The notes under the pieces: generated by a model
Seen by the model: the letters and a program-made list of their open reading frames with translations, nothing else
What the model was told of the DNA's origin: nothing
The model's database searches: none
Position numbers and translations under genes: made by a program
In this document: positions 30,706 through 44,301 of the stretch, in pieces
Layout: each line of letters starts with the position of its first letter
How positions within the stretch are numbered: the stretch's first letter is position 1
Assembly (NCBI GenBank): GCA_913020155.1
Contig: CAJWBA010000001.1
Coordinates: 1 to 64,000, forward strand
Length of the DNA stretch: 64,000 nt
Origin: an uncultured Flavobacteriales bacterium
Lineage (GTDB): Bacteria > Bacteroidota > Bacteroidia > Flavobacteriales > Flavobacteriaceae
Direction: 5' to 3'

Positions 30706-30867
30706 ATTCACAAAGACTCGGAACCTCAAAAAGAAAATAAATTTTAGAATTCGAAATAATACCTCATCAAAATGATGATTTCGTAATTATTCAAATGTAA
30801 ATTAAAGACTTCTAAACATTATTTAAATAATTAATTACCTTAATTTTTTAAACTTTTTATAAATGTG

Positions 30868-32121
30868 ATGGAAGAACTAGCAGAAATTGTAACAGATCAA
30901 AATAACCTAGCATTAGCTATTGACACTGTTTGGGTAGCCCTTTGTGCAGCATTAATATTTTTTATGGAAGGAGGGTTTGCCCTGTTAGAGGCAGGTTTTG
31001 TTCGTTCAAAAAATGCAATGAGCATTATTGCTAAGGTCATTATTGATGTAATTTTTGGTGGAATAGCCTTTTTTATAATTGGTTTTGGAATTGCTTACGG
31101 GTCATCAAACGGATGGTTTGCACTAGACTTTGGTATTATGGATGGTGACCTCGGTTTGGATCTTAATGTTTCCAATAAACTTTTTTGGTTCATCCAATTG
31201 GGGTTTGCAATAGCAGCTATTTCAATCGTTTCTGGAGCCTTAGCCGAACGAATGAAACTACTTTCCTACACCGTTTATGTTGTTGCTTTTTGCGCAATCA
31301 TTTATCCATTAGTAGCAAATTGGGTCTGGAATCCAAATGGATGGTTAGCCTCAAGAGGATTCAATGATTTTGCAGGATCTGCCGCAGTTCACGCTATGGG
31401 TGGATTTTCAGCCTTAGCAGCCGCTATTGTTTTGGGACCACGGATCGGAAAATATCGAAAAGACGGAACAGCCAATACTATTCCTGGCCACAACTTACCC
31501 TTAGCAGCCATTGGAGGATTCATACTCTGGTTTGGGTGGTTTGGATTTAACCCAGGATCAACCCTTGGAGCTGTTGGAAATTGGGAATTGATTGGAACAG
31601 TTGTTACCAATACCTTTTTAGCCTCAGCTGGTGGTGGAATTTCAACCATGATTTACACCTATTACTCATACGGTAAAGTTGACATTACTATGGTAATCAA
31701 CGGAATTTTGGCAGGTTTAGTAGCCATCACGGCTGGATGCAATGTAGTAGAACCACATTCGGCAATAATCATTGGTACTGTAGCTGGAGTTCTGGTTGAC
31801 GTAGCTGTAATTTATATTGATAAATTTAAAGTTGATGACCCAGTTGGAGCAGTTGCAGTTCATGGAGTAAATGGTTTTTTTGGAACCCTCGCAGTTGGTC
31901 TATTTGCTGCTGACGTTGGCCTTTTCTTTGGAGGTGGATTTTCACTTTTCCTAACTCAATTAATTGGAGTGACAACAATTGCAGTATTTTCTTTTGTTGT
32001 AACTTTCATTTTAATGAAATTAATAGATAAAACTCTTGGCATTCGAGTTTCAAGAGAAGAGGAAATTGCAGGAATAGATGCAGCTTCTTTTGGTGTAGAA
32101 TCATATTCTACTTATGAATAA
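30868..32121 (+). CDS. amt: Ammonium transporter (Amt)
   Basis: This 417-residue ammonium channel/transporter of the Amt family has eleven predicted helices. The paired pore histidines are visible in AAVHAMGGFSALAAAI and AVAVHGVNGFFGTLAVGLF. The N-terminus begins MEELAEIVTDQNN; the ATG at 30868 is preceded in frame by a GTG at 30865, so the start is ambiguous by one codon. The cytoplasmic tail follows TLGIRVSREEEIAGID. A PII signal protein gene follows 25 nt downstream, the classic amt-glnK pairing, so the PII protein probably gates this transporter. Confidence 0.95.
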   Translation: MEELAEIVTDQNNLALAIDTVWVALCAALIFFMEGGFALLEAGFVRSKNAMSIIAKVIIDVIFGGIAFFIIGFGIAYGSSNGWFALDFGIMDGDLGLDLNVSNKLFWFIQLGFAIAAISIVSGALAERMKLLSYTVYVVAFCAIIYPLVANWVWNPNGWLASRGFNDFAGSAAVHAMGGFSALAAAIVLGPRIGKYRKDGTANTIPGHNLPLAAIGGFILWFGWFGFNPGSTLGAVGNWELIGTVVTNTFLASAGGGISTMIYTYYSYGKVDITMVINGILAGLVAITAGCNVVEPHSAIIIGTVAGVLVDVAVIYIDKFKVDDPVGAVAVHGVNGFFGTLAVGLFAADVGLFFGGGFSLFLTQLIGVTTIAVFSFVVTFILMKLIDKTLGIRVSREEEIAGIDAASFGVESYSTYE

Positions 32122-32146
32122 ATCATAAAATTTAAAATCTTTAAAA

Positions 32147-32488
32147 ATGAAAAAAATTGAAGCAATCATAAGGCCCTCAAAACTCAAAGCAATTCAACAA
32201 GGGCTTAAAGATGTTGATATTCCTTGTTTAACTGTTTTACCTGCCTCTGGATCTGGACTGCAAAAAAGTTTTACTAAAATCTACAGAGGAACAGAACAAT
32301 CTCTAACCCTCCAACAGCGTACCATGATTATGTGTGTGGTGAGTGATGAAAATCTTGATAAATGTGTAGATGCAATCCTCGAGCATGGATCTGATGGTGA
32401 GGTAGGTGACGGAAAAATATTCATTTACAATGTAGAGGACGCCATACGAATGAGTACTGGTGTTAGAGGTCATGAAGCCATACATTAG
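32147..32488 (+). CDS. glnK: PII-family nitrogen regulatory protein (GlnK-like)
   Basis: This 113-residue PII trimer subunit senses ATP/ADP and 2-oxoglutarate and binds Amt. It has KIYRGTE in the T-loop and VGDGKIFIYNVEDAI as the C-terminal signature. The T-loop position 51, which is the uridylylated tyrosine in enterobacterial GlnB/GlnK, is glutamine here (YRGTEQSLTL, Gln51), so covalent control by GlnD-type uridylylation is not possible. Signalling would rely on nucleotide and 2-oxoglutarate binding. It lies 25 nt after amt. Confidence 0.93.
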   Translation: MKKIEAIIRPSKLKAIQQGLKDVDIPCLTVLPASGSGLQKSFTKIYRGTEQSLTLQQRTMIMCVVSDENLDKCVDAILEHGSDGEVGDGKIFIYNVEDAIRMSTGVRGHEAIH

Positions 32489-32633
32489 AAAAATATTTCT
32501 AAGCTAAAGGATAAAGTGTGATAATTATTTCCTGCCAATTTTTATAATAAATGTAGACACCTTTATTTCGTTTTCTAAAAAGAAATTTCATAATTTTAAT
32601 TAAAATTTAATCTTATAAAATCAAAAGTAATTG

Positions 32634-33113
32634 ATGAATAAAAATATTTTACTCGTTTTAATTGTATCACTATCTGCCTGTGGGGAGGGAAATGAAAAGA
32701 AAAAAGGTTTTGAGTACAACCGCACTCAAAAAACAAAATCCAGTAAATCTTTAAGCCAAAAAGAAACAACTCCTATTGATTTATCCAACAAAGGAATTGG
32801 ACCAATAAGCAACATGAGTTTTGATGAAGCTATTGATAAAGAAATGGCTGCCATAGGTGCTGCAGCTTTCAAACAAAAGTGTACTGCCTGTCACAAACCC
32901 AAGGCTAAACTTATTGGCCCAGGAATGAATGGAATTTACGAAAGACGCTCCCCTGAGTGGGTAATGAATATACTTTTGAATCCTACAGAAATGTTAAAAA
33001 AAGATCCTATTGCCATTGCACTACTCAAAGAATACAATAACATTCAGATGCTGAATCAAAATTTGAGTGTGGAAGAAGCTCGAGCAATTGCTGAGTACTT
33101 ACGAACACTCTAA
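32634..33113 (+). CDS. Single-heme cytochrome c lipoprotein
   Basis: This is a lipoprotein of about 159 residues with signal MNKNILLVLIVSLSAC and one heme-binding CTACH motif (in FKQKCTACHKPKAK). A methionine in NNIQMLNQNLSVEEA or earlier can supply the sixth ligand. The start is the ATG at 32634; a TTG directly upstream is less likely. It converges on the dehydrogenase small-subunit gene at 33141-33785 with 27 nt between the stops. It may accept electrons from the GMC dehydrogenase complex, which in related three-subunit systems needs a cytochrome partner, but being on the opposite strand makes that an inference. Confidence 0.88.
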   Translation: MNKNILLVLIVSLSACGEGNEKKKGFEYNRTQKTKSSKSLSQKETTPIDLSNKGIGPISNMSFDEAIDKEMAAIGAAAFKQKCTACHKPKAKLIGPGMNGIYERRSPEWVMNILLNPTEMLKKDPIAIALLKEYNNIQMLNQNLSVEEARAIAEYLRTL

Positions 33114-33140
33114 ATAGGAAGACAAATTTGTGTTATACTT

Positions 33141-33785
33141 TTATAAAGACCAAGCTCTGCCTCCAGTAGCTTCCTCTAAACTGATACACCCTTTTTGCTC
33201 TCCAGGAACAGGTGCGTAAGCTAAAACCGTTTCGCCGATCACCTCGTTATTTTTAAATGCATAAACGGCCAAACTTCTAAGGCTATTGAGCATAGAGTGT
33301 GCTACTCCTTCTTCTGGGATTGCTGACGTTCCTCCATTAGCAAGAGCCTCTGACCAAACACCAACTGCTTCTTCTCGTACCTGTTGAGTAGCTTGATCCG
33401 CTCTTAGAAAACGATTCAATTGTACGTCAACATCTTCATTGGTAATCTCAGATACCGTTGTTTTAGCAGAAGTTTCGAGAGTTAATTTTGAAATAACGGG
33501 AAGTGCTATTTGAGCAAACTCACGATCTTCTGGACTTGCAACATGTGCCATAAAACCATCCATGAATTGCGAAATATTCAATTCATTTGCTCCTGGAGTT
33601 TGTGTTTTCGGTAATATCACATCAACAATTTTACCTACAAGTTCAGCTTGTTGAGGGGTGAAAAATTCAGGAGTCCAATTAGCTTGAGTAGTTTGACAAC
33701 TTTCAAAAAGGCTCACCACTGTTGAGCTAAGGGTAATTGCTCCAAATGAGAGTCCTATGTTTTTTAATGCGGTTCTTCTTTGCAT
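33141..33785 (-). CDS. Dehydrogenase small subunit (gluconate 2-dehydrogenase subunit 3 family)
   Basis: This 214-residue exported protein has a twin-arginine-type start (MQRRTALKNIGLSFGAITL) and a body like the gamma subunit of gluconate 2-dehydrogenase and glucoside 3-dehydrogenases (FFTPQQAELVGKIVDVILPK, then TPGANELNISQFMDGFM). In those enzymes the small subunit carries the FAD-bearing GMC catalytic subunit across the membrane by the Tat pathway. The GMC gene lies 11 nt upstream on the same strand, so the two form one operon and a single complex. Confidence 0.9.
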   Translation of the reverse strand: MQRRTALKNIGLSFGAITLSSTVVSLFESCQTTQANWTPEFFTPQQAELVGKIVDVILPKTQTPGANELNISQFMDGFMAHVASPEDREFAQIALPVISKLTLETSAKTTVSEITNEDVDVQLNRFLRADQATQQVREEAVGVWSEALANGGTSAIPEEGVAHSMLNSLRSLAVYAFKNNEVIGETVLAYAPVPGEQKGCISLEEATGGRAWSL

Positions 33786-33796
33786 GATTAAGGCTT

Positions 33797-35503
33797 TTAA
33801 AGGTTCATTTTTTTTAATTCTCTTACAGCAAAGTCAACTGCTCTTGCTGTCATTGCCATGTAGGTTAGGGATGGATTTACATTTCCTGCAGAAGTCATTG
33901 CAGCTCCATCGGTAACAAAAACGTTTGGTACCTCGTGCAACTGATTATTTCCATTCAAAACCGAGGTCTTGGGATCGCGACCCATACGTGCGGTTCCCAT
34001 TTCATGAATTCCGAGACCTAAATGGTAATCATTGTCCCAGCCACTCACATTCTTAAACCCTGCATTATCTAACATCTCCATAGCTTGTTCTTGCATATCT
34101 TTACGCATGTTCAACTCATTTTCACGAAGGTTTGCATCAAAGGTAACCGTTGGAAGGTCCCATTGATCGAGATTGTCATAATCCAAGGTCATTTTATTAT
34201 CGTGATAGGGTAAAACTTCCCCAAAGCCATTCAATCCAATTGTCCAGCCTCCGGGGTTGAGGATTGCTTCCTTGAATTCAGGGCCATAAGCCATTTCTTT
34301 AACATTTTCTGTCCAAGAACCCCTGCTTCCCCCACCTTGATAACCATAGCCTCTCAAAAAGTCCTTTTGATTGGTTGTGCCTCCAAGGTTTCTAAATCGT
34401 GGAATGAAAACTCCATTGGGTCTTCTTCCTTTGTAGTATTGATCCTCATAACCCTCAACATCAGCTTGTGCACCAACCTGAAAATGATGATCCATAATGT
34501 TATGTCCTAATTCCTCTGATGCATTTCCCATTCCATTTGGAAAAGCTGCAGATTTTGATTGCATTAAAATTGCTGTACTGGCAACTGTGGAGGCACACAA
34601 GAAAATAACTTTAGCTTTAAATTCAATGGTTTCTTTAGTAATTGAATCAATTACCCGTACCCCAGTTGCTCGCTTAGTCTCAGTATCATAAAGTACTTCG
34701 TGCACTACCGAATTTGTTCTCATTGTCATATTACCAGTAGCTTCAGCCATTGGAAGTGTAGAAGAATTACTGCTAAAATATCCTCCAAATGGACATCCTC
34801 TAGAACAGCGATTTCGGTATTGGCATGAAATTCTTCCTGCACCTGGTTTGGTCCCCTCTGTAATATGAGCAACACGTCCTATAGTTAATAATCGATCATC
34901 ATATTTTTCAGCAATAGATCCTTTTAGCTGGTCTTCAACACAAGTCAATTCCATGGGTTTCAAAAACACACTATCTGGTAATTGAGGTAAATTCAAACTC
35001 TCACCACTAATTCCTACATGACGTTCTACATAACTGTACCAAGGTTCAATGTCTTTATATCTGATGGGCCAGTCTACCGCAATACCTTCTTTAGCATTGG
35101 CTTCAAAATCCACTTCGCCTCGACGGTAACTTTGTCTTCCCCACATCAGAGATCTTCCTCCAACGTGATAACCACGACACCAATCGAATTGCTGAGTCTC
35201 GTTGTAAGGATGATCAACATCATCTACAAAAAAATGTTTGGTAGATTCACTGGTTGTGTATCCGGTCCTACTTTGTTTGGGTTGACGTTCTCTTGTCTCT
35301 TGAGTAATCACATCACCGTTAGGGAAATCCCAAGGATCTTTGTTCATTGTTGGGTAATCATCAATATGTTTGACATCTCTTCCTCGCTCAAGAACAAGAG
35401 TTTTTAATCCTTTTTCAGTCAGTTCTTTTGCAGCCCATCCGCCACTTATTCCTGTTCCAACGACGATGGCATCGTACTCAGTGATATTATTATTTATGCT
35501 CAT
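33797..35503 (-). CDS. GMC-family sugar dehydrogenase catalytic subunit
   Basis: This 568-residue FAD enzyme of the glucose-methanol-choline family has GTGISGGWAAKELTEKGLKT as the FAD-binding segment, VTDGAAMTSAGNVNPSLTYM at the C-terminus with the catalytic Asn region, and GIHEMGTARMG. It has no signal peptide of its own; the Tat-type small subunit gene follows. Three cysteines, C227, C233 and C237, show C-x5-C-x3-C spacing (ISCQYRNRCSRGCPFG), which matches the ligands of the [3Fe-4S] cluster in bacterial FAD glucose dehydrogenase alpha subunits. It probably oxidises a sugar or glycoside ring hydroxyl, likely at C3, in the periplasm. Confidence 0.9.
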   Translation of the reverse strand: MSINNNITEYDAIVVGTGISGGWAAKELTEKGLKTLVLERGRDVKHIDDYPTMNKDPWDFPNGDVITQETRERQPKQSRTGYTTSESTKHFFVDDVDHPYNETQQFDWCRGYHVGGRSLMWGRQSYRRGEVDFEANAKEGIAVDWPIRYKDIEPWYSYVERHVGISGESLNLPQLPDSVFLKPMELTCVEDQLKGSIAEKYDDRLLTIGRVAHITEGTKPGAGRISCQYRNRCSRGCPFGGYFSSNSSTLPMAEATGNMTMRTNSVVHEVLYDTETKRATGVRVIDSITKETIEFKAKVIFLCASTVASTAILMQSKSAAFPNGMGNASEELGHNIMDHHFQVGAQADVEGYEDQYYKGRRPNGVFIPRFRNLGGTTNQKDFLRGYGYQGGGSRGSWTENVKEMAYGPEFKEAILNPGGWTIGLNGFGEVLPYHDNKMTLDYDNLDQWDLPTVTFDANLRENELNMRKDMQEQAMEMLDNAGFKNVSGWDNDYHLGLGIHEMGTARMGRDPKTSVLNGNNQLHEVPNVFVTDGAAMTSAGNVNPSLTYMAMTARAVDFAVRELKKMNL

Positions 35504-35752
35504 TAAAGATTTTTTTATTACATTAAATATATAAACTATGTTTGTTAATATGATATATTTTTGAATAGATTTAAAGATAATATAAATTTAAAAGGTTTTC
35601 GTTTTAAAAAAACGCACTCCACAACCATATTAATACATTATAAAAACGTTTAGTGTTAGATTGAATAATGATTTAAATAAAGAAAGTAAAAATGGATTCA
35701 AATCATCTGCAATTTACTTAAAAACAATCATCTAAAGTTAAAAAAATACCCT

Positions 35753-36739
35753 ATGAAAAGAAGAAATTTTATCACCAAAAGTGTATTTACAGGATTAGGA
35801 TTAAGTGCAGTTGGTGCAAATGCGTTCAATAATCTAAACCTCGTTTCAAATCCATTGGGATCAGGGTTGATCACCAATCCTTTTTTTAAATTATCTCTGG
35901 CACAATGGTCTTTGAACAAAGCCATTCGCTACAAAGGAATGAATCCATATGACTTTGCGGCTAAAGCAAAAGAATATGGTTTTGAGGGACTGGAGTATGT
36001 AAGTCAACTTTACACAGACGTTACAAAATCAAAAAATCAAGCTGCTGCCCTCATCAAGTTTATTGAAAAAAACAATAAAATTGCGGCAAAGCATGATGTT
36101 GAAAATCTTTTAATTATGATTGACGGAGAAGGAGATCTTTCAGTTGCTTCTGCTTCTGAACGTAAAAAGGGAGTAGAAAATCATTACAAATGGGTAGAAA
36201 CTGCGGCAGCCTTAGGTTGTCATTCCTTACGAATCAACCTTTTTGGTGTAACTGATCGAGATGCTTGGGTAGAAAATTCTTCTGAAAGCTTAACAGCTCT
36301 TGGAAATTATGCTGCAAAATACAATATCAATATTATCGTTGAAAACCACGGGTATTTATCTTCCGATGCTGGACTTCTAATGCAAGTTCTCAACAATGTA
36401 AACCTTCCAAACTGTGGTTCACTCCCCGACTTTGGAAATTTTTGTTTGGAACGAGAAGGAGGAGCCCGCTGGGATGCCAAATGCGTCAAAGAATACGATC
36501 GATATCAAGGGGTAAAAGAATTGATGCCACGAGCCTTTGCGGTAAGTGCAAAATCCCATGATTTTGACGCAGAAGGAAAGGAAATTTACACCGACTACAA
36601 ACGAATGCTTCAACTCGTCAAAAATGCGAACTTTAATGGCTATATTGGGGTTGAATATGAAGGTAATGTTTTGAGTGAAGAAGAAGGGATTATCGCTACA
36701 AGAGACTTGTTGATCAAAACTGCTCAAGAATTAAGTTAA
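35753..36739 (+). CDS. Exported sugar phosphate isomerase/epimerase-like TIM barrel
   Basis: This 328-residue protein has a Tat-like signal (MKRRNFITKSVFTGLGLSAV) and a xylose-isomerase-like TIM barrel. Metal ligands are suggested by IIVENHGYL, CGSLPDFGNFCLE and VEYEGN. The cysteine-bearing CGSLPDFGNFC loop is common in this group. It is divergent from the GMC gene with a 249-bp intergenic region that should hold both promoters; I see no clear TAnnTTTG pair in it. The next gene, 14 nt downstream, encodes an MFS permease, so the two belong to a catabolic operon. Confidence 0.87.
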   Translation: MKRRNFITKSVFTGLGLSAVGANAFNNLNLVSNPLGSGLITNPFFKLSLAQWSLNKAIRYKGMNPYDFAAKAKEYGFEGLEYVSQLYTDVTKSKNQAAALIKFIEKNNKIAAKHDVENLLIMIDGEGDLSVASASERKKGVENHYKWVETAAALGCHSLRINLFGVTDRDAWVENSSESLTALGNYAAKYNINIIVENHGYLSSDAGLLMQVLNNVNLPNCGSLPDFGNFCLEREGGARWDAKCVKEYDRYQGVKELMPRAFAVSAKSHDFDAEGKEIYTDYKRMLQLVKNANFNGYIGVEYEGNVLSEEEGIIATRDLLIKTAQELS

Positions 36740-36753
36740 CAAAATTCAAATTT

Positions 36754-37986
36754 ATGAGAATTAAAACAAAATTTCAACTATCTCTTATGATGTTCCTCCA
36801 ATTTTTTATTTGGGGAGGGTGGTTCGTAACCCTTGGAACTTTTTTGGGAAATAATTTAGGAGCTACAGGAGCTGAAACTGGAATGGCTTTTTCAACACAA
36901 TCCTGGGGCGCAATAATTGCTCCTTTTTTTATAGGTTTAATTGCAGATCGATATTTTAATGCTGAAAAGATACTAGGAACTTTACACCTAATAGGTGCTG
37001 TCCTGATGTACTTTATGTCACAAGCTACTTCATTTGAGGCTTTCTATCCATTAGTATTTGGGTATATGGTTGCCTACATGCCTACCCTTGCTTTGGTTAA
37101 TTCAGTATCCTTTTTTCAAATGAAAGACCCAGCAAAAGAATTTTCATTCATTCGAGTTTTTGGAACCATTGGATGGATTGTTGCTGGATTGGTTATCAGT
37201 TTCGTATTCCATTGGGACTCTACAGAAGCTATTGGCGCAGGTGCTTTGAGCAATACCTTCACGATGGTTGCAATTGCTTCCTTGATTTTGGGAGTGATTA
37301 GTTTTACACTTCCAAAAACACCTCCCTCCACACCCGATGGAAGTGGAGTAAATATTTCAGATATCTTGGGATTAGATGCCCTAAAACTTCTTAAAGATCG
37401 TAACTTTTTGATGTTTTTTATTACCTCTATTCTGATCTGTATTCCTCTGGCTTTTTACTACCAACAAGCCAATCCTTTCTTGGTTGAATTGGGTATGGAA
37501 AATCCTACTGGAAAAATGACCTTAGGTCAAGTAAGTGAGGTACTCTTCATGCTTTTACTTCCTTTTATCTTTAAAAAATTTGGGTTCAAAAAAACACTAC
37601 TCATAGGGATGTTAGCTTGGGCTGTCCGATACAGCTTATTCGCTTATGGAAACGCAGGAGAACTTTCTTTCATGTTGATTATTGGAATAGCCTTGCACGG
37701 GATTTGTTACGACTTTTTCTTTGTGTCTGGACAAATTTACACAGACTCCAAAGCAGGTGAAAAAATAAAAAGTGCAGCACAAGGACTGATTACCCTAGCG
37801 ACTTATGGTGTTGGAATGTTAATTGGATTTTGGGTTGCTGGAAAAATATCAGATCAATACATTTTTGCCGACGGAATGCACGATTGGGAAATAATTTGGA
37901 TGCTTCCTGCGATATTTGCTGTTGGAGTTATGTTGCTGTTTATGCTAATATTTAAAAATGAGGTTATTGAACTTAAAGAAGAATAA
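36754..37986 (+). CDS. MFS permease, nucleoside/H+ symporter type
   Basis: This 410-residue twelve-helix transporter starts IKTKFQLSLMMFLQFFIWGG and contains GLIADRYFNAEKILG, both typical of the NupG/XapB nucleoside-proton symporter family in Bacteroidota. In sugar loci such genes are often annotated as nucleoside permeases though they may take up sugars or keto-sugars. The placement between two TIM-barrel and oxidoreductase genes supports a role in importing the locus substrate. The next gene starts 2 nt after its stop, suggesting translational coupling. Confidence 0.88.
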   Translation: MRIKTKFQLSLMMFLQFFIWGGWFVTLGTFLGNNLGATGAETGMAFSTQSWGAIIAPFFIGLIADRYFNAEKILGTLHLIGAVLMYFMSQATSFEAFYPLVFGYMVAYMPTLALVNSVSFFQMKDPAKEFSFIRVFGTIGWIVAGLVISFVFHWDSTEAIGAGALSNTFTMVAIASLILGVISFTLPKTPPSTPDGSGVNISDILGLDALKLLKDRNFLMFFITSILICIPLAFYYQQANPFLVELGMENPTGKMTLGQVSEVLFMLLLPFIFKKFGFKKTLLIGMLAWAVRYSLFAYGNAGELSFMLIIGIALHGICYDFFFVSGQIYTDSKAGEKIKSAAQGLITLATYGVGMLIGFWVAGKISDQYIFADGMHDWEIIWMLPAIFAVGVMLLFMLIFKNEVIELKEE

Positions 37987-37988
37987 AA

Positions 37989-39122
37989 TTGAGAAATAAA
38001 ATACGTTTAGGAATTTTAGGAGGGGGCGGGGACTCCCTTATAGGAGTTGTACATCGAATTGCTTCGAACATGTTTGATCGCTTCCAATTGGTAGGAGGAT
38101 GTTTCAATCCAAACCCAAAAGAAAACAATGCATTTGCAAAACACATAGGAGTTCCGCTGAATCGAACTTATGATAGTTTTGACATCCTCATCGAAGAAGA
38201 ACTAAAGCTTCCTGTTGAGCAACGCATGGAAGTAATTTCAGTCTTGACTCCAAATTTTTTGCATTTCCCAATGGCAAAAAAACTTTTGGAAAACGACTTT
38301 AATGTCATTTGTGAAAAACCGCTGACTACAACCTATATAGAGGCACTAGAGCTAGAGGCTCTACAAAAAGAAAAACAAACTGTTTTTGCCGTAACCTACA
38401 CTTACACTGGATATCCAATGGTTCGCCAGATGAAAGACATGATTCGAAGAGGGGTATTGGGTCCTGTTCAAAAAGTAGACCTCCAATATTACCAAGGGTG
38501 GATCAACCCAATAATTCACGATCTCGAAGAACGAGCTAAGGTATGGCGTTTGGATCCAAAAAAAGGAGGAGCCAGTTGTTGTATTGGGGACATCGGTACA
38601 CATGCTTTTGATATGCTCGAATACGTAACTGGAATGGAAGTAAAACAACTTCTCGCAGATTTAAATACGCTTTATGGTAATAATCCTCTGGATGTCGATG
38701 GAACCGTTTTGGTGAGAATGTCAGAGTATTGTAAAGGGGTTATTCGAGCAAGTCAAATTGCTACGGCTGAGGAAAACAATTTTAGCGTTCAAATTTATGG
38801 AAGCAAAGGAAGTTTGAAATGGGAACAAGAAAATCCAAATAGACTTATCTATTTAACAGAGGATAAACCTATGCAAGTTTTAAAACCCGGTCACGGCTAC
38901 CTCTCAGAATTTGCAAAAGAAAGCAGTAAAATTCCACCCGGTCATCCGGAAGGTTTTTTTGATTCTATGGGGAATATTTACAACGGTGTTGCCAAAGCTT
39001 TACGAAACGAAAAACATGATGAAGGAGCCTACCCAACAATACATGCAGGGGTTCGTGGAATGCTCTTCATAGAAAAAGTATTAGAGTCCCATTCAAAGGA
39101 TAATACATGGGTAAATTTATAA
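37989..39122 (+). CDS. Gfo/Idh/MocA-family oxidoreductase
   Basis: This 377-residue NAD(P)-dependent sugar oxidoreductase begins with KIRLGILGGGGDSLIG, the Rossmann fold, and has ICEKPLTTTYIEA, the EKP motif of the family, near residue 110. The C-terminal domain includes GGASCCIGDIGTHAFDMLEY. The start is a TTG at 37989: no in-frame ATG occurs before the Rossmann motif, and the stop of the upstream gene is only 2 nt away. The enzyme may reduce or oxidise a 3-keto sugar. It continues the catabolic operon. Confidence 0.9.
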   Translation: MRNKIRLGILGGGGDSLIGVVHRIASNMFDRFQLVGGCFNPNPKENNAFAKHIGVPLNRTYDSFDILIEEELKLPVEQRMEVISVLTPNFLHFPMAKKLLENDFNVICEKPLTTTYIEALELEALQKEKQTVFAVTYTYTGYPMVRQMKDMIRRGVLGPVQKVDLQYYQGWINPIIHDLEERAKVWRLDPKKGGASCCIGDIGTHAFDMLEYVTGMEVKQLLADLNTLYGNNPLDVDGTVLVRMSEYCKGVIRASQIATAEENNFSVQIYGSKGSLKWEQENPNRLIYLTEDKPMQVLKPGHGYLSEFAKESSKIPPGHPEGFFDSMGNIYNGVAKALRNEKHDEGAYPTIHAGVRGMLFIEKVLESHSKDNTWVNL

Positions 39123-39133
39123 AATACTAATTC

Positions 39134-40186
39134 ATGAAAACAGTTAAAGGACCTGCTATCTTTTTAGCACAATTTGTAGACCAAGAAGCACCTTTTAACT
39201 CCCTGGATGGGATGTGCAAATGGGCTGCAAACTTAGGATACAAAGGAATACAAATCCCAACATGGGAAACCTTTCTGATAGACTTAGACAAAGCTGCCGA
39301 GAGTCAAACATACTGTGATGAACTCAAAGGAAAAGTCAATTCATATGGACTAGAGATTACCGAACTTTCAACCCACTTACAAGGACAATTAGTTGCTGTT
39401 CACTCGGCCTATGACCTGATGTTCGACAACTTTGCACCGGATGATTTTAAAAATAACCCAAAAGCAAGAACGCAATGGGCTGTAGAAACTGTAAAAAAAG
39501 CAGCCATTGCAAGTCGCCGACTAGGACTCGATGTATCAGCTACTTTTTCAGGCTCACTTCTTTGGCACACCTGGCATCCATGGCCTCAAAGACCAAAAGG
39601 TTTAGTTGAAATGGGGTTTGAAGAACTCGCAAAGCGATGGTTACCCATCTTGGACGTGTACGAAGAAAATGGGGTCGATTTATGTTACGAAATTCACCCG
39701 GGTGAAGATCTACACGATGGGGTTACTTTTGAACGCTTTTTAGAAGCTACTGGAAATCATAAAAGAATAAATATCCTTTACGACCCAAGCCATTTTGTAT
39801 TACAACAGCTCGATTACATAACTTACATCGACCATTACCATGAATTTATAAAATCCTTCCACGTTAAAGATTCAGAATTTAAACCCAACGGTAAAAAAGG
39901 TGCTTTTGGTGGTTATGGGGATTGGATTGATAGGGCTGGAAGGTATCGCTCTCCTGGAGATGGACAAATCGATTTTAAAACCATATTTTCAAAACTTACA
40001 GAATACGGCTGCGATGTTTGGGCGGTAATGGAATGGGAATGTTGTATCAAAAGCCCAGAGCAAGGAGCTCGTGAAGGAGCGCCTTTTATAAAAAACCACA
40101 TCATTGAAGCTACCCAAAAAGTTTTTGATGACTTTACAGGAGGGTCCACAGATCCGGAATTTCTTAAAAAAATACTTAATCTTTAA
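39134..40186 (+). CDS. Cytosolic sugar phosphate isomerase/epimerase-like TIM barrel
   Basis: This 350-residue protein has no signal peptide and is a xylose-isomerase-like TIM barrel. Likely metal ligands are in VDLCYEIHPGED, INILYDPSHFVLQ, FHVKDSE and AVMEWECC. Family members in keto-sugar operons isomerise or epimerise 3-keto sugars, though the step is not shown by sequence alone. It starts 11 nt after the Gfo/Idh gene and ends 9 nt before the DUF1080 gene. Confidence 0.9.
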   Translation: MKTVKGPAIFLAQFVDQEAPFNSLDGMCKWAANLGYKGIQIPTWETFLIDLDKAAESQTYCDELKGKVNSYGLEITELSTHLQGQLVAVHSAYDLMFDNFAPDDFKNNPKARTQWAVETVKKAAIASRRLGLDVSATFSGSLLWHTWHPWPQRPKGLVEMGFEELAKRWLPILDVYEENGVDLCYEIHPGEDLHDGVTFERFLEATGNHKRINILYDPSHFVLQQLDYITYIDHYHEFIKSFHVKDSEFKPNGKKGAFGGYGDWIDRAGRYRSPGDGQIDFKTIFSKLTEYGCDVWAVMEWECCIKSPEQGAREGAPFIKNHIIEATQKVFDDFTGGSTDPEFLKKILNL

Positions 40187-40195
40187 TCTAAATCT

Positions 40196-40969
40196 ATGAA
40201 AAATTTAGTCCCTGTCCTTTGTCTTTCTTTAGGGCTAATTTCTTGTCAAGCTAACCCCAAAAAAAGGAAAAATATTGAACCACAAAAAATACAAACTGTA
40301 AAAGTCACTAAAGAATGGACTTCGCTATTTGATGGGAAAACCCTGAACAGTTGGCATCAATACAATGGAGAAGGAGTTGGTAAACAGTGGACTGTTGAGG
40401 AAAGTACAATGGTCTTTAATCCAGAAGAAAATAGGAATTATGGTGAAGGAGGTAGAAACATCGTCACCGATAAGGAATACACTAATTTTGTTTTATCGAT
40501 TGAATGGAAGATATCGGAAGGTGGCAATAGCGGTATTTTTTGGGGGATTAGAGAGAGCAAGGAGTTTGGGGAACCCTATTTAACTGGTCCTGAAATCCAA
40601 ATACTCGATAATGATCGACATCCTGATGCACTAGAAAATCCAAAATACCATCAAACTGGGGCACTTTATGATATGGTTCAACCCACATCAGATGTATGTA
40701 ATCCGGCTGGGGAATGGAATCATATTGTGTTGACGATAAATCATAACACTAACAAAGGGAGTGTAGTATTGAATGAGATAGAAATTGTTGCTTTTGCATT
40801 ACACGGACCTGAATGGGATTCTCTTGTTAAAGCATCTAAATTTGGTAATAAAAAAGCTTCAAACTATTTAGAGGCTCCAAAGTTTGGGACATTTCGAACT
40901 GGTAAAATTGGTTTGCAAGATCATGGAGATCAAGTTTATTTCCGAAATATAAAAATTAAAGAATTGTAG
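40196..40969 (+). CDS. DUF1080 lipoprotein (3-keto-glycoside hydrolase-like)
   Basis: This 257-residue lipoprotein has signal MKNLVPVLCLSLGLISC and one DUF1080 (3-keto-disaccharide hydrolase) jelly-roll domain. Typical blocks are WTSLFDGKTLNSWHQ, FVLSIEWKISEGGNSGIFWG and IQILDNDRHPD, ending in GLQDHGDQVYFRNIKIKEL. Family members cleave glycosides whose sugar has been oxidised at C3, which fits the GMC dehydrogenase in this locus. It ends the operon of five genes that starts at 35753. Confidence 0.9.
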   Translation: MKNLVPVLCLSLGLISCQANPKKRKNIEPQKIQTVKVTKEWTSLFDGKTLNSWHQYNGEGVGKQWTVEESTMVFNPEENRNYGEGGRNIVTDKEYTNFVLSIEWKISEGGNSGIFWGIRESKEFGEPYLTGPEIQILDNDRHPDALENPKYHQTGALYDMVQPTSDVCNPAGEWNHIVLTINHNTNKGSVVLNEIEIVAFALHGPEWDSLVKASKFGNKKASNYLEAPKFGTFRTGKIGLQDHGDQVYFRNIKIKEL

Positions 40970-40976
40970 CAACTGT

Positions 40977-41837
40977 ATGATTACATCAATGACCGGGTTT
41001 GGGAAAAGTGAAACTTCTATTTTAAATAAAAAAATTACGGTTGAAATCAGAACCCTCAACAGTAAAAATATTGATTTAAATATTAGATTCCCTAATGTCT
41101 TTAAAGGATTAGAGCCTCAACTAAGAGGTTTTGTCAGTGATCAATTGAATCGAGGAAAAATAGATGTTTCTGTTTACATAGAAACCGATGATGGTAGTTC
41201 CAATACTTCAAGCCTAAACAAAGTGGTTGTAGATAATTACATTGATCAGTTAAATCAAATTTATCAGGGTGATCGTATGGAGCTTCTCAAGATGGCAGTT
41301 CGTTTGCCAGATGCACTAAAAACAGAAAAAGAAGATTTAAAAAAAGAGGAAAAAGAAGCACTCCTTAGTGTTTTTTCACAAGCACTTTTACAAGTAAATG
41401 ATTACAGAAAAAATGAAGGAGCTGCAATGGAAAAGGATTTCGATCAACGTTTAGGAGTATTGGAAAAACTGCTAAAAGAAGTTATCAAAATTGATCCTGA
41501 GCGTAAAGTGAAAGTGAAATTAAAACTTCGAAACTCAATAGAGCAATTGAATGTAGAGATCGATCAAAACCGACTGGAGCAAGAATTGATTTATTACCTT
41601 GAAAAATATGATATTACTGAAGAAAAAGTTCGGTTAGACAATCATCTTTCATACTTCAAAGAAATTATGAATCAAGATGAACCCAATGGGAAAAAACTTG
41701 GCTTTATTTCACAGGAAATTGGACGTGAAGTCAATACCATTGGATCGAAAGCAAATCATTCTGGACTCCAAAAAATTGTAGTTCAAATGAAAGATGAACT
41801 CGAAAAAATAAAGGAACAGCTTCTCAACGTACTCTAA
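40977..41837 (+). CDS. yicC: YicC/YloC-family endoribonuclease
   Basis: This 286-residue protein begins MITSMTGFGKSE, the family hallmark, and ends in the conserved EIGREVNTIGSKANHSGLQ plus KDELEKIKEQ(L)LNVL block. YicC family proteins are endoribonucleases affecting sRNA stability in enterobacteria. The gene starts 7 nt after the DUF1080 gene, but its content links it to gmk, which follows directly: the yicC stop is immediately followed by the gmk ATG with no gap, the usual pairing. Confidence 0.93.
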   Translation: MITSMTGFGKSETSILNKKITVEIRTLNSKNIDLNIRFPNVFKGLEPQLRGFVSDQLNRGKIDVSVYIETDDGSSNTSSLNKVVVDNYIDQLNQIYQGDRMELLKMAVRLPDALKTEKEDLKKEEKEALLSVFSQALLQVNDYRKNEGAAMEKDFDQRLGVLEKLLKEVIKIDPERKVKVKLKLRNSIEQLNVEIDQNRLEQELIYYLEKYDITEEKVRLDNHLSYFKEIMNQDEPNGKKLGFISQEIGREVNTIGSKANHSGLQKIVVQMKDELEKIKEQLLNVL

Positions 41838-42407
41838 ATGAAAGAAGGTAAGTTATTTGTCTTTTCTGCACCTTCCGGCTCCGGTAAAACAACTCTTGTA
41901 AAGCACCTTCTTTCTGAAAATTTACCCTTAGGGTTTTCTATTTCTGCTACTTCTCGAAAACCTCGTGGTAAAGAAAAAGATGGTGTTGACTATCATTTTC
42001 TATCTTCATCTGATTTTCAAAATAAGATCAAAGAAAACGCCTTTGTTGAGTATGAAGAAGTTTACAATGGAGTTTTTTATGGAACTCTAAAATTAGAGTT
42101 AGAACGCTTATGGGCTCAGGGGAAACATGTCCTTTTTGATATTGATGTAAAAGGTGGTGTAAACATTAAAGAACAATACCCTCAAAACACTTTAGCGTTA
42201 TTTATTCAACCACCCTCAAAAAAAATATTAGAAGAACGTCTGCGAAGAAGAAGTACAGAAAGTGAAAAAAACATTCAAATGAGATTGGCAAGGACAGAAC
42301 AAGAAATGAGCTTTGCAGTTCATTTTGATTCTGTTATCATAAATGATGACCTTGAAACAGCCAAAAAAGAGGTAGTTAGTCAAGTTCGAGAGTTTATCGA
42401 TTCATAG
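41838..42407 (+). CDS. gmk: Guanylate kinase
   Basis: This 189-residue kinase converts GMP to GDP. The P-loop reads SAPSGSGKTT at about residues 10-19, and the GMP-binding SATSRKPRGKEKDGVDYHFL and the lid region EERLRRRSTESE follow. Length is normal. It starts directly after the yicC stop. nadD lies 21 nt downstream, and a TATCTTTG promoter-like box occupies that gap. Confidence 0.96.
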   Translation: MKEGKLFVFSAPSGSGKTTLVKHLLSENLPLGFSISATSRKPRGKEKDGVDYHFLSSSDFQNKIKENAFVEYEEVYNGVFYGTLKLELERLWAQGKHVLFDIDVKGGVNIKEQYPQNTLALFIQPPSKKILEERLRRRSTESEKNIQMRLARTEQEMSFAVHFDSVIINDDLETAKKEVVSQVREFIDS

Positions 42408-42416
42408 CCAAATCAC

Positions 42417-42424
42417 TATCTTTG
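42417..42424 (+). promoter_or_regulatory. Candidate -7 promoter box of nadD
   Basis: The sequence TATCTTTG, a full TAnnTTTG match, sits in the 21-nt gap between gmk and nadD and ends 4 nt (TAGT) before the nadD ATG at 42429. Initiation about five bases downstream of the box would give a leaderless nadD mRNA. The -33 region holds only a weak TTT at 42393-42395. Confidence 0.5.
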
Positions 42425-42428
42425 TAGT

Positions 42429-43010
42429 ATGAAAAAAATTGGGCTCTATTTTGGTACCTTCAACCCGATTCACATTGGTCATCTTATTCTGGCGAATCAT
42501 TTCGCAGAAACAACTGATTTGGATGAAATTTGGATGGTTATTACTACCCAAAATCCATTCAAAAAAAAAGATTCAATCTTAGACAACCACCACCGTTTGG
42601 AATTAGCGTACAAAGCCACTTTCGATTATCCAAAACTAAAACCTTCAAATGTTGAATTTGGACTTCCTACTCCCAACTACACCATAAATTCATTGGTTCA
42701 TTTAGTCGAAAAACATCCAGAGCATCAATTTGCTCTCCTTATGGGAGAAGATAATTTAGTTGGTTTCCCAAAATGGAAAAATTATGAATTAATCATAGAA
42801 CATCATGAGCTTTATGTTTACCCCAGAAAAACAAATCGAGTAATTCCAGAGCAATTCAAAAACCATCCAAAGATAAATCTAATAGACGCACCCCAAATAG
42901 AATTGTCATCATCTGCTATTCGAAAAGCAATCAAGAAAGAGCAAAATGTTCGTCCCTTACTCCCACCTGAAAGCTGGATTTACTTAGATGAAATGAATTT
43001 TTACAAATAA
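42429..43010 (+). CDS. nadD: Nicotinate-nucleotide adenylyltransferase
   Basis: This 193-residue enzyme adenylates nicotinate mononucleotide in NAD synthesis. Motifs are GLYFGTFNPIHIGHLIL (nucleotidyltransferase HxGH) and the late ELSSSAIRKAIKKE that corresponds to ISSTxxR. The length is normal. It follows gmk but has its own -7 box in the gap. Convergent with a glycosyltransferase gene; the stops are 7 nt apart. Confidence 0.95.
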   Translation: MKKIGLYFGTFNPIHIGHLILANHFAETTDLDEIWMVITTQNPFKKKDSILDNHHRLELAYKATFDYPKLKPSNVEFGLPTPNYTINSLVHLVEKHPEHQFALLMGEDNLVGFPKWKNYELIIEHHELYVYPRKTNRVIPEQFKNHPKINLIDAPQIELSSSAIRKAIKKEQNVRPLLPPESWIYLDEMNFYK

Positions 43011-43017
43011 GATTATT

Positions 43018-44301
43018 TCAGTTAAAGCATTTATTGATCAATTCCTTCGTGAGACTTTCCCTACTCCACTTCTCAATTTCTGGAAATATGTTTAGAAGTG
43101 TTCCCTCATGCTTAACTATTTGAGAAATAAAAGAAAATATACCATCCAAATCATTTGAATCCAACATAACAGCACAACTCCCTTTATAAATAAATTTTGC
43201 TGCTTCAGAGTTTGGATCTCCCAAAGAAAGTATGGGTCTTTGTGATGCTATGTATTCTAATAACTTCCCCGATATCATCTGCATATTGGTACCATCGAAG
43301 ATAAAGTTTAACAACAGATGTGCACTTTTCATTATTGCTACTGCTGCTGCGTGATCCAGATAACCGTAATAAATAATTTCCACATTTGGTAAACCAATGC
43401 GAATCTCCTCTATTATTCTTTCAGAAATATTTCCTGCAAGAGAGAAACGAATAGGTCGATCTCCATTGAGTTTTTGTAATGCTTTCATTATTGATGGATA
43501 AGCTTGTTGCTGGGTTAACAAACCTGTGTAGACCAGATGAAAAACATCTTCTGGCGGATAAGCTTTTGAGCTGGCCATTAGCTCGGAATCAAAACCGTTG
43601 GGTATGGCAAAAAATTTTTGGTCTGGTGCTTTTCGTTTTAACCTTTGATGCAAGTCTCCCGCTAGAGTCGTGATAACTCCATTAGCCTTTTGAAGAACAT
43701 TTTTTTCTAATTGGGCATCTTTGGCTTCACTGCTTTGAGACCGTTGCATTTGTTTGTTGTAAAAAACATCCGTCCAAGGGTCTCGAAAATCTACCCACCA
43801 ATTTATCTCAAATTGGTTACTGAGTTCTAATCCTATCAAATGGGTAGAATGTGGAGGACCTGTGGTTATTAGGTGAGTTATTTTTTCTTCTATCAATATT
43901 TTTTGTGCAGCTTTAATCGCAAAGGAAACCCAGCCTTTTCGGGCATCAGGAATAAAGAAATTACCTCGGACATAGGCGGCTAATCTTCCGAAAAAACTCT
44001 TTGTAGCTAATTCTCCCTGGGGGATTCCTTGATGACTACTTCCAGAACTTAGCCAAGAATACAAACGCAACGGTTCACGAGTACTGGTCTTAATAACTCT
44101 AATATTCTTAACTTCTTCCAACAGGCTAAAGTCAATTACAGGATAAGATGCTTGCTTTTCATCTACGGTAATAACAATGGGTTCCCAACCCAAGCGCTTC
44201 AAATATTTAGCAAAATACATCCATCGTTGAACGCCCGAACCACCTGAGGGTGGCCAATAATAGCTTAAAATCAAAATTTTCTTCTGGATACCCAAATTCA
44301 A
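43018..44301 (-). CDS. Glycosyltransferase, GT4-like
   Basis: This 427-residue glycosyltransferase has the two-domain GT-B fold. The N-terminal half starts KKILILSYYWPPSGGSGVQR, an acceptor-domain motif, and the C-terminal half contains LVYTGLLTQQQAYPSIMKAL and MISGKLLEYIASQRPILSL, with the GT4-type donor-site region. It probably adds a sugar to a cell-surface polysaccharide or glycolipid. No other glycan genes surround it, so acceptor and linkage are unknown. It is isolated, followed upstream only by a lipoprotein pseudogene. Confidence 0.87.
   Translation of the reverse strand: MNLGIQKKILILSYYWPPSGGSGVQRWMYFAKYLKRLGWEPIVITVDEKQASYPVIDFSLLEEVKNIRVIKTSTREPLRLYSWLSSGSSHQGIPQGELATKSFFGRLAAYVRGNFFIPDARKGWVSFAIKAAQKILIEEKITHLITTGPPHSTHLIGLELSNQFEINWWVDFRDPWTDVFYNKQMQRSQSSEAKDAQLEKNVLQKANGVITTLAGDLHQRLKRKAPDQKFFAIPNGFDSELMASSKAYPPEDVFHLVYTGLLTQQQAYPSIMKALQKLNGDRPIRFSLAGNISERIIEEIRIGLPNVEIIYYGYLDHAAAVAIMKSAHLLLNFIFDGTNMQMISGKLLEYIASQRPILSLGDPNSEAAKFIYKGSCAVMLDSNDLDGIFSFISQIVKHEGTLLNIFPEIEKWSRESLTKELINKCFN

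Follow-up and report, generated by a model that had tools for sequence, protein, structure and literature searches.

A putative oxidative pathway of glycoside cleavage encoded in a gene cluster of a marine flavobacterium

The window analyzed here is a stretch of 64,000 nucleotides, positions 1 to 64,000 of contig CAJWBA010000001.1 (assembly GCA_913020155.1), from an uncultured Flavobacteriales bacterium. Its host is a member of the Candidatus Arcticimaribacter genus in the NS5 marine group, a marine flavobacterial genus also referred to as NS5_F (PMC9122927). Between positions 32631 and 40969 the window harbors a cluster of eight genes that probably encodes the cleavage of glycosides by oxidation, elimination, hydration and reduction, with the steps split across the inner membrane. 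An initial annotation had already read this cluster as an oxidize-then-cleave system, and that reading is supported as the best explanation by the gene set, by the match of a cytosolic TIM barrel (referred to here as HYD) to a solved hydratase, by the match of a DUF1080 lipoprotein to solved 3-keto-glycoside enzymes, and by the conservation of the cluster.

HYD aligns end to end (residues 1-349, 536 bits) with the PDB entry 8ro4, which was deposited as a 2-hydroxy-3-keto-glucal hydratase and which we take to be the Agrobacterium enzyme; the next solved relative scores 153 bits. Residues E186, H188, D217, H220, H243, E300 and E302 are invariant in all 97 aligned rows. Judged from its sequence, HYD is likely a 2-hydroxy-3-keto-glucal hydratase, and an identifiable job for this protein makes both eliminative cleavage and keto-sugar uptake more likely. 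HYD is also the best conserved member of the set. When 94 flavobacterial loci are compared with the window its median identity is 84% and its lowest 74%, and the other medians are 74% for the MFS permease, 69% for the GMC dehydrogenase, 68% for the cytochrome (22 loci only), 63% for the Gfo/Idh protein, 54% for the exported TIM barrel (TIM1), 50% for the DUF1080 protein and 37% for the small subunit. A hydratase of this kind, LgdB2 of the levoglucosan route, hydrates the beta-elimination product of a 3-keto-glycoside (PMC7676230), and the evidence for AtHYD as another such hydratase is preliminary by its authors' account (PMC10628242).

All eight open reading frames are complete, and their places and orientations are as the initial annotation gave them. 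The protein families it named were also borne out, each by a Pfam match above the curated cutoff, and NCBIfam gave only weaker matches below its cutoffs. Signal sequences were judged by eye, without a predictor. The features are as follows, with Pfam scores and their cutoffs.

32631..33113, + strand: single-heme cytochrome c lipoprotein (CxxCH), TTG start with an ATG at 32634; PF00034 (Cytochrom_C), 38.5 bits (cutoff 21.3)
33141..33785, - strand: Tat-signal small subunit of the gluconate 2-dehydrogenase subunit 3 family; PF13618 (Gluconate_2-dh3), 60.4 bits (cutoff 23.4)
33797..35503, - strand: GMC-type FAD dehydrogenase, catalytic subunit; GMC_oxred_C, 73.7 bits (cutoff 24.6), and GMC_oxred_N, 51.6 bits (cutoff 23); Cys227/Cys233/Cys237, His500/Asn543
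35504..35752: divergent intergenic region of 249 bp, where both promoters are presumed on the basis of the reading-frame coordinates
35753..36739, + strand: exported TIM barrel (TIM1); PF01261
36754..37986, + strand: MFS permease, nucleoside/LacY type; PF03825 (Nuc_H_symport), 396.2 bits (cutoff 25.9)
37989..39122, + strand: cytosolic Gfo/Idh oxidoreductase, proposed 3-keto-sugar reductase; GFO_IDH_MocA, 64.1 bits (cutoff 24); near in 58 of 58 full-flank relatives (defined below)
39134..40186, + strand: cytosolic TIM barrel (HYD), proposed 2-hydroxy-3-keto-glucal hydratase; 536 bits to 8ro4
40196..40969, + strand: DUF1080 lipoprotein, proposed periplasmic 3-keto-glycoside eliminase/hydratase; 3keto-disac_hyd, 160.3 bits (cutoff 26.8)

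The two TIM barrels, both xylose-isomerase-like, match AP_endonuc_2 with 76.7 and 126.5 bits (cutoff 31.1). A lipoprotein-type Cys is seen in the DUF1080 protein and in the cytochrome, and no signal sequence was seen in the GMC, Gfo/Idh or HYD proteins. A scan for sigma-70-type promoters across 32400-43100 returned 24 promoter-like matches against 31.7 (sd 6.1) in shuffled sequence and, since there are fewer than in the shuffles, no particular promoter site is supported.

The AlphaFold model of the DUF1080 lipoprotein (mean pLDDT 85.9) finds its top matches in 9fbe (Z 29.8) and 8rr2 (Z 29.7), with a root-mean-square deviation of 2.2 over 214 residues at 35% identity, and both entries are titled 3-keto-glycoside eliminase/hydratase. 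The two differ in the QDHG motif, where Asn replaces His in 9fbe, at residue 275 by the structural residue ranges. An H275N variant of a Bacteroides thetaiotaomicron 3-keto-O-glycoside lyase is described as able to eliminate and deficient in hydration (PMC13273386), and we infer that the 9fbe protein is this variant. In the window protein H243 aligns with the His at residue 275 and is invariant across all 82 aligned rows, 69 of which have a lipoprotein-type Cys (C17). The depositors of the solved structures do not agree on whether members of this family catalyze elimination, hydration or both reactions. The host also has a second DUF1080 gene on another contig (C2, L140:12683-16176), together with an exported Gfo/Idh protein that starts MKKREF. 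This small and separate sugar locus also encodes a membrane protein that carries a heparan-glucosaminide acetyltransferase domain and is presumably NagX-like.

The best solved relatives of the GMC subunit are the large subunits of fructose and glucose dehydrogenases (105 to 110 bits), and an H1147A variant is among the solved entries listed for these relatives. C227, C233 and C237 align with three Cys residues of these enzymes that we take to be iron-sulfur cluster ligands, and H500 and N543 align with a His and an Asn that are presumably active-site residues. These five positions are kept in 94 to 95 of 95 aligned rows, the sole exception being an X in one row. The small subunit, which begins MQRR, with R3 and R4 invariant across all 84 aligned rows, is the only PF13618 match in the host genome (80% complete), and it is likely the export partner of the GMC subunit. 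In the cytochrome, C84, C87 and H88 are kept in all 23 aligned rows, and this protein is a possible electron acceptor for the dehydrogenase. A GMC protein, a Tat-exported PF13618 small subunit and a cytochrome c are together the three-subunit composition of the LacABC type, and the enzyme appears to be respiratory and not oxygen-using.

TIM1 begins MKRRNF, an export-type start by eye. Export signals vary among its relatives: of 81 examined, 31 have RR close to the N terminus and 26 have a motif resembling a lipobox (the overlap was uncounted). Its model (pLDDT 92.0) matches 4ovx best among solved structures (Z 41.3, 49% identity), followed by Art22 (Z 29.0) and then by the C-glycoside eliminases 9m3a (27.1), 7exz (26.7) and 8umc (26.2); from Z 26.3 downward sugar epimerases also match, mixed with DgpC/CGD eliminases. 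With so many epimerases matching the same fold, function was not assigned from it, and TIM1 is possibly an eliminase or an epimerase. A Ser265-Ala-Lys motif is invariant in 82 of 82 rows. The best solved relatives of the Gfo/Idh protein (3v5n, 7d5m and 3dty) are titled oxidoreductase only, and a role as 3-keto-sugar reductase is proposed for it from sequence.

Conservation was followed in the 80 best loci for relatives of HYD, 58 of which have about 10 kb on both sides (full-flank relatives); a gene was called near at a match of 50 bits or more and, as the loci were picked by similarity to one gene, the counts hold among near relatives. Gfo/Idh is near in all 58, GMC in 56, the small subunit in 54, TIM1 in 52, DUF1080 in 47 (in 46 within 1 kb after HYD) and the permease in 43. 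The complete set of seven core genes is near in 32 relatives, and the best GMC gene is on the opposite strand in 49. As the arrangement recurs in this way, the grouping of these genes is not due to chance. In some loci (L048, L077, L085, L106 and others) one or two extra GMC genes lie on the opposite strand between Gfo/Idh and the hydratase. Sixty genomes were also searched whole, with a close GMC defined by a best E of at most 1e-200 and the hydratase by an E of at most 1e-60. Of the 10 genomes outside the genus that have a close GMC, 8 also have HYD, compared with 0 of the 31 that have none; in G022 the hydratase and the GMC gene are on separate contigs. Within the genus, where many genomes are drafts, a close GMC is present in 18 of 19 (one a contig-edge fragment) and the hydratase in 15 of 19.

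In the route that we propose, the GMC subunit would leave the cytosol on the Tat signal of its small subunit and would oxidize a presumed glycoside in the periplasm, probably at C3, with the electrons passing to cytochrome c and on to respiration. The DUF1080 lipoprotein, perhaps with TIM1, would then be the protein that breaks the glycosidic bond by beta-elimination, releasing 2-hydroxy-3-keto-glucal together with an aglycone or a second sugar, and the DUF1080 protein may hydrate some of the glucal to 3-keto-glucose. The nucleoside-type permease would act inward, importing the keto-sugar. Within the cytosol, HYD would turn the glucal into 3-keto-glucose, which the Gfo/Idh protein would finally reduce to a hexose.

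The permease is the sole match of its kind in the host genome, and its association with the hydratase is also seen elsewhere. Thirteen plasmid loci were fetched around the hydratase. Relatives of the permease occur within such gene sets or beside the hydratase in Xanthomonas sacchari (L159, 55% identity) and Hymenobacter (L059, 58%). The Halomonas locus (L153, an unannotated record) has the permease beside the hydratase in two pieces, 66 and 78% identical; it also matches GMC, the small subunit, the hydratase and Gfo/Idh, with several of these matches broken into two or more pieces, and has no DUF1080 match. Pantoea (L160) and Duffyella (L162) have a permease of 40 to 42% identity directly before the hydratase and a LacI gene after it, and these make up compact plasmid units (L160:4745-8111 and L162:4747-8097) in which tblastn (E at most 1e-5) finds none of the other window proteins within 13 kb. 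The MFS proteins of Pseudoalteromonas (L057), the sphingomonads (L058 and L152) and Phaeobacter (L157) have no detectable similarity to the window permease. Five plasmid loci (L151 and L155 to L158) combine HYD and Gfo/Idh with annotated sugar ABC transporter genes, and no DUF1080 or GMC match was found in the 13 to 17 kb fetched. A Gfo/Idh match is close by in 10 of the 13 plasmid loci. The X. sacchari plasmid carries HYD, permease, Gfo/Idh, TIM barrel, cytochrome, DUF1080, small subunit and GMC; this equivalent gene set occupies L159:7001-14963, its Gfo/Idh protein is only 28% identical to that of the window, and transfer between phyla is possible.

The permease-hydratase pairs that have no oxidase genes nearby suggest, as an association and not as proof, that the permease carries keto-sugar. 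A broader idea, which we offer tentatively, is that bacteria trade a sugar intermediate, either 2-hydroxy-3-keto-glucal or a 3-keto-hexose, across membranes by means of a dedicated carrier, namely the permease annotated for nucleosides beside the hydratase. In flavobacteria, Halomonas and Xanthomonas such a pair would serve as the inner part of an oxidative glycosidase that is divided in two, and in Pantoea and Duffyella, together with a LacI regulator, as a scavenging unit that stands alone.

A number of observations weigh against the proposed route or against individual steps of it. The cytochrome gene is near the cluster in only 10 of the 58 full-flank relatives. Ser265 of TIM1 stands where two DgpC chains, in weak alignments, have a His that we take to be a metal ligand. 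The QDH motif was not seen in the DUF1080 proteins of the X. sacchari and Hymenobacter loci, no Gfo/Idh match accompanies the hydratase in 3 of the 13 plasmid loci, and the Catenovulum locus (L154), which has GMC, small subunit and DUF1080, shows no HYD, Gfo/Idh or MFS match in 19.7 kb. Two genomes (G031 and G037) have a close GMC and no hydratase at an E of 1e-60. The Pedobacter DUF1080 genes gave no lactose phenotype (fitness -0.4 to +0.2), for which the authors suggest redundancy (PMC9007349). The final step is also affected. Glucokinase (PF00480/PF02685) was not found in the host genome (G000, 80% complete) or in G008, G010 and G030, even though G010 is a single 2.03-Mb contig; ROK proteins are present in the sister genomes G005, G013 and G014, PF02685 in 0 of 7 genomes, and PF01869 gave matches in 5 of 7, one of them above the cutoff. 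A different kinase may be at work, or else the route ends in something other than glucose, and free glucose is no more than a possible end product. With respect to cleavage, eight other DUF1080 structures tie with the top matches within 1 unit. Two of them, 8tda and 8v31, were deposited under the title 3-keto-2-hydroxy-glucal hydratase, and these titles imply that the window DUF1080 protein may chiefly hydrate, with elimination perhaps carried out by another protein. The retention of H243 likewise means that this protein may hydrate in the periplasm too, in which case 3-keto-glucose would be imported, and the claim that only the glucal enters is weakened accordingly.

These last points lead to an alternative that is conceivable, if not the one we favor, in which cleavage and hydration are both completed in the periplasm, either by the DUF1080 protein alone or by TIM1 as eliminase and DUF1080 as hydratase. 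In this case 3-keto-glucose or another 3-keto-hexose would be imported and reduced by Gfo/Idh, and HYD would rescue escaped glucal or run in reverse. The invariance of the hydration residue H243, the hydratase titles of 8tda and 8v31, and the export-type start of TIM1 with its fold near C-glycoside eliminases all favor such a scheme. However, a rescue role is hard to square with HYD being the best conserved of the proteins (the medians of the seven others are 37 to 74%), and there are permease-hydratase pairs for which neither DUF1080 nor GMC is matched in the 13 kb around them.

It is unlikely that an intact 3-keto-disaccharide is imported and that HYD both eliminates and hydrates in the cytosol, with DUF1080 as an accessory. 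A precedent exists in LgdB2, which has been suggested to be bifunctional, with low-affinity elimination as well as hydration (PMC7676230), and the five plasmid loci with an ABC transporter, HYD and Gfo/Idh and without a DUF1080 or GMC match are consistent with this idea; yet the position of DUF1080 so closely after HYD in most full-flank relatives, together with its lipoprotein signal, makes a periplasmic cleaving step simpler. We also consider it quite unlikely that the GMC complex is a free-sugar dehydrogenase of the glucose/fructose type that feeds respiration while its neighbors serve another purpose. Fructose and glucose dehydrogenases are indeed its best solved relatives, but those matches reach only about 110 bits; the DUF1080, hydratase and reductase genes stay with the GMC gene in most relatives examined, and the Caulobacter equivalents are tied to growth on lactose, raffinose and salicin (PMC9007349). 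An inositol or polyol route, in which GMC would make keto-inositol and HYD and Gfo/Idh would act as an IolE-like dehydratase and an IolG-like dehydrogenase, is highly improbable and was rejected on curated cutoffs: the weak matches to IolE (TIGR04379, 63 bits) and IolG (44.3 bits) lie far under the respective values of 290 and 355, HYD scores 536 bits to the glucal hydratase versus 41.6 to the IolE structure 3cny, and by general knowledge DUF1080 has no place in such a route.

The proposed oxidation, elimination, hydration and reduction can be compared with systems already described. The initial annotation placed the route in Bacteroides and other bacteria; the nearest described system is the lac locus of Caulobacter crescentus rather than that of Bacteroides. 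This locus encodes the LacABC lactose 3-dehydrogenase, the DUF1080 protein CCNA_01705, a transporter, two epimerases and a sugar reductase; the set is important for growth on lactose, and similar clusters are reported in Indibacter, Algoriphagus and Halomonas (PMC9007349). The Caulobacter DUF1080 protein has a signal peptide and was proposed to be periplasmic, and the study left open what becomes of the keto-sugar and what the epimerases do (PMC9007349). Compared by description only, the component set is the same as in the window, and PF06439 and PF13618 were both matched in the Caulobacter control genome. As the same set has already been described in Caulobacter, the window locus is a further member. 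In contrast, the BT_2158 family of Bacteroides (BT_2158_fam, NCBIfam NF058561) scores only 21.7 bits with the window Gfo/Idh protein, against a cutoff of 750. The Bacteroides route employs this BT_2158-named Gfo/Idh glycoside 3-dehydrogenase, whereas the window has another Gfo/Idh protein and a GMC complex with a cytochrome. What the two share is a DUF1080 enzyme of the BT2157 type (8rr2, 9fbe, 8tda and 3osd), to which the window protein is 35% identical over 214 residues, with the hydration His kept.

In the Agrobacterium operon of GlycDH, AtOGE, AtHYD and a Gfo reductase, the hydratase and the Gfo reductase end the route as they would in the window; its eliminase, however, is a Mn-dependent TIM barrel, whereas the candidates here are the DUF1080 lipoprotein and the exported TIM barrel, and the window GMC gene, unlike that operon, is accompanied by a Tat small subunit (PMC10628242). 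The LgdA-LgdB1-LgdB2-LgdC set of Bacillus smithii follows the same order of chemistry as that proposed for the window, but its first step is mediated by an NAD-dependent dehydrogenase, and neither a GMC enzyme nor DUF1080 is named in the available part of that account (PMC7676230). A literature search, with most subscription journals outside its reach, found no paper on this gene combination, and the main text of the NS5 paper holds no word starting with GMC, keto, DUF1080 or oxidoreductase (PMC9122927). The present analysis adds to this in that one epimerase-like protein is given the hydration step, residues for cofactor binding and hydration are seen to be conserved, the permease is linked to the hydratase, and the cluster is placed in NS5 bacteria.

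With regard to uptake across the outer membrane, the initial annotation saw no SusC/SusD pair, and searches with SusD (PF07980) and SusC (TIGR04056) likewise gave no match on the contig of the window; SusCD-linked uptake at the locus was rejected on this basis. Genome-wide searches of the host with these two families gave one PF07980 match and 13 TIGR04056 matches, and SusD-like_2 (PF12771) was not searched for genome-wide. One SusC is above the cutoff, and it lies on contig C4 beside a SusD-like_2 protein, among unrelated methylase, AAA ATPase and Trk genes.

Directly upstream of the cluster (window 30865-32488) lie the genes of an ammonium transporter and of a PII-like protein; the transporter was matched in only two fetched loci (L037 and L038), and many of the stretches may end short of it. 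The same-strand genes that follow the cluster resemble what we take to be yicC, gmk and nadD, and yicC is near in 38 of the 58 full-flank relatives.

The locus is a well-preserved marine example of a known pathway type, and it sharpens the likely roles of the genes involved. The reading of HYD gives a likely step to the kind of "sugar epimerase" that was unexplained in the Caulobacter study, and its link to the permease makes the substrate of that carrier directly testable. The cluster would give widespread, small-genome marine flavobacteria of the NS5 group a non-hydrolytic use of glycosides, and such a use would escape surveys that count carbohydrate-active enzymes (CAZymes) and SusCD pairs.

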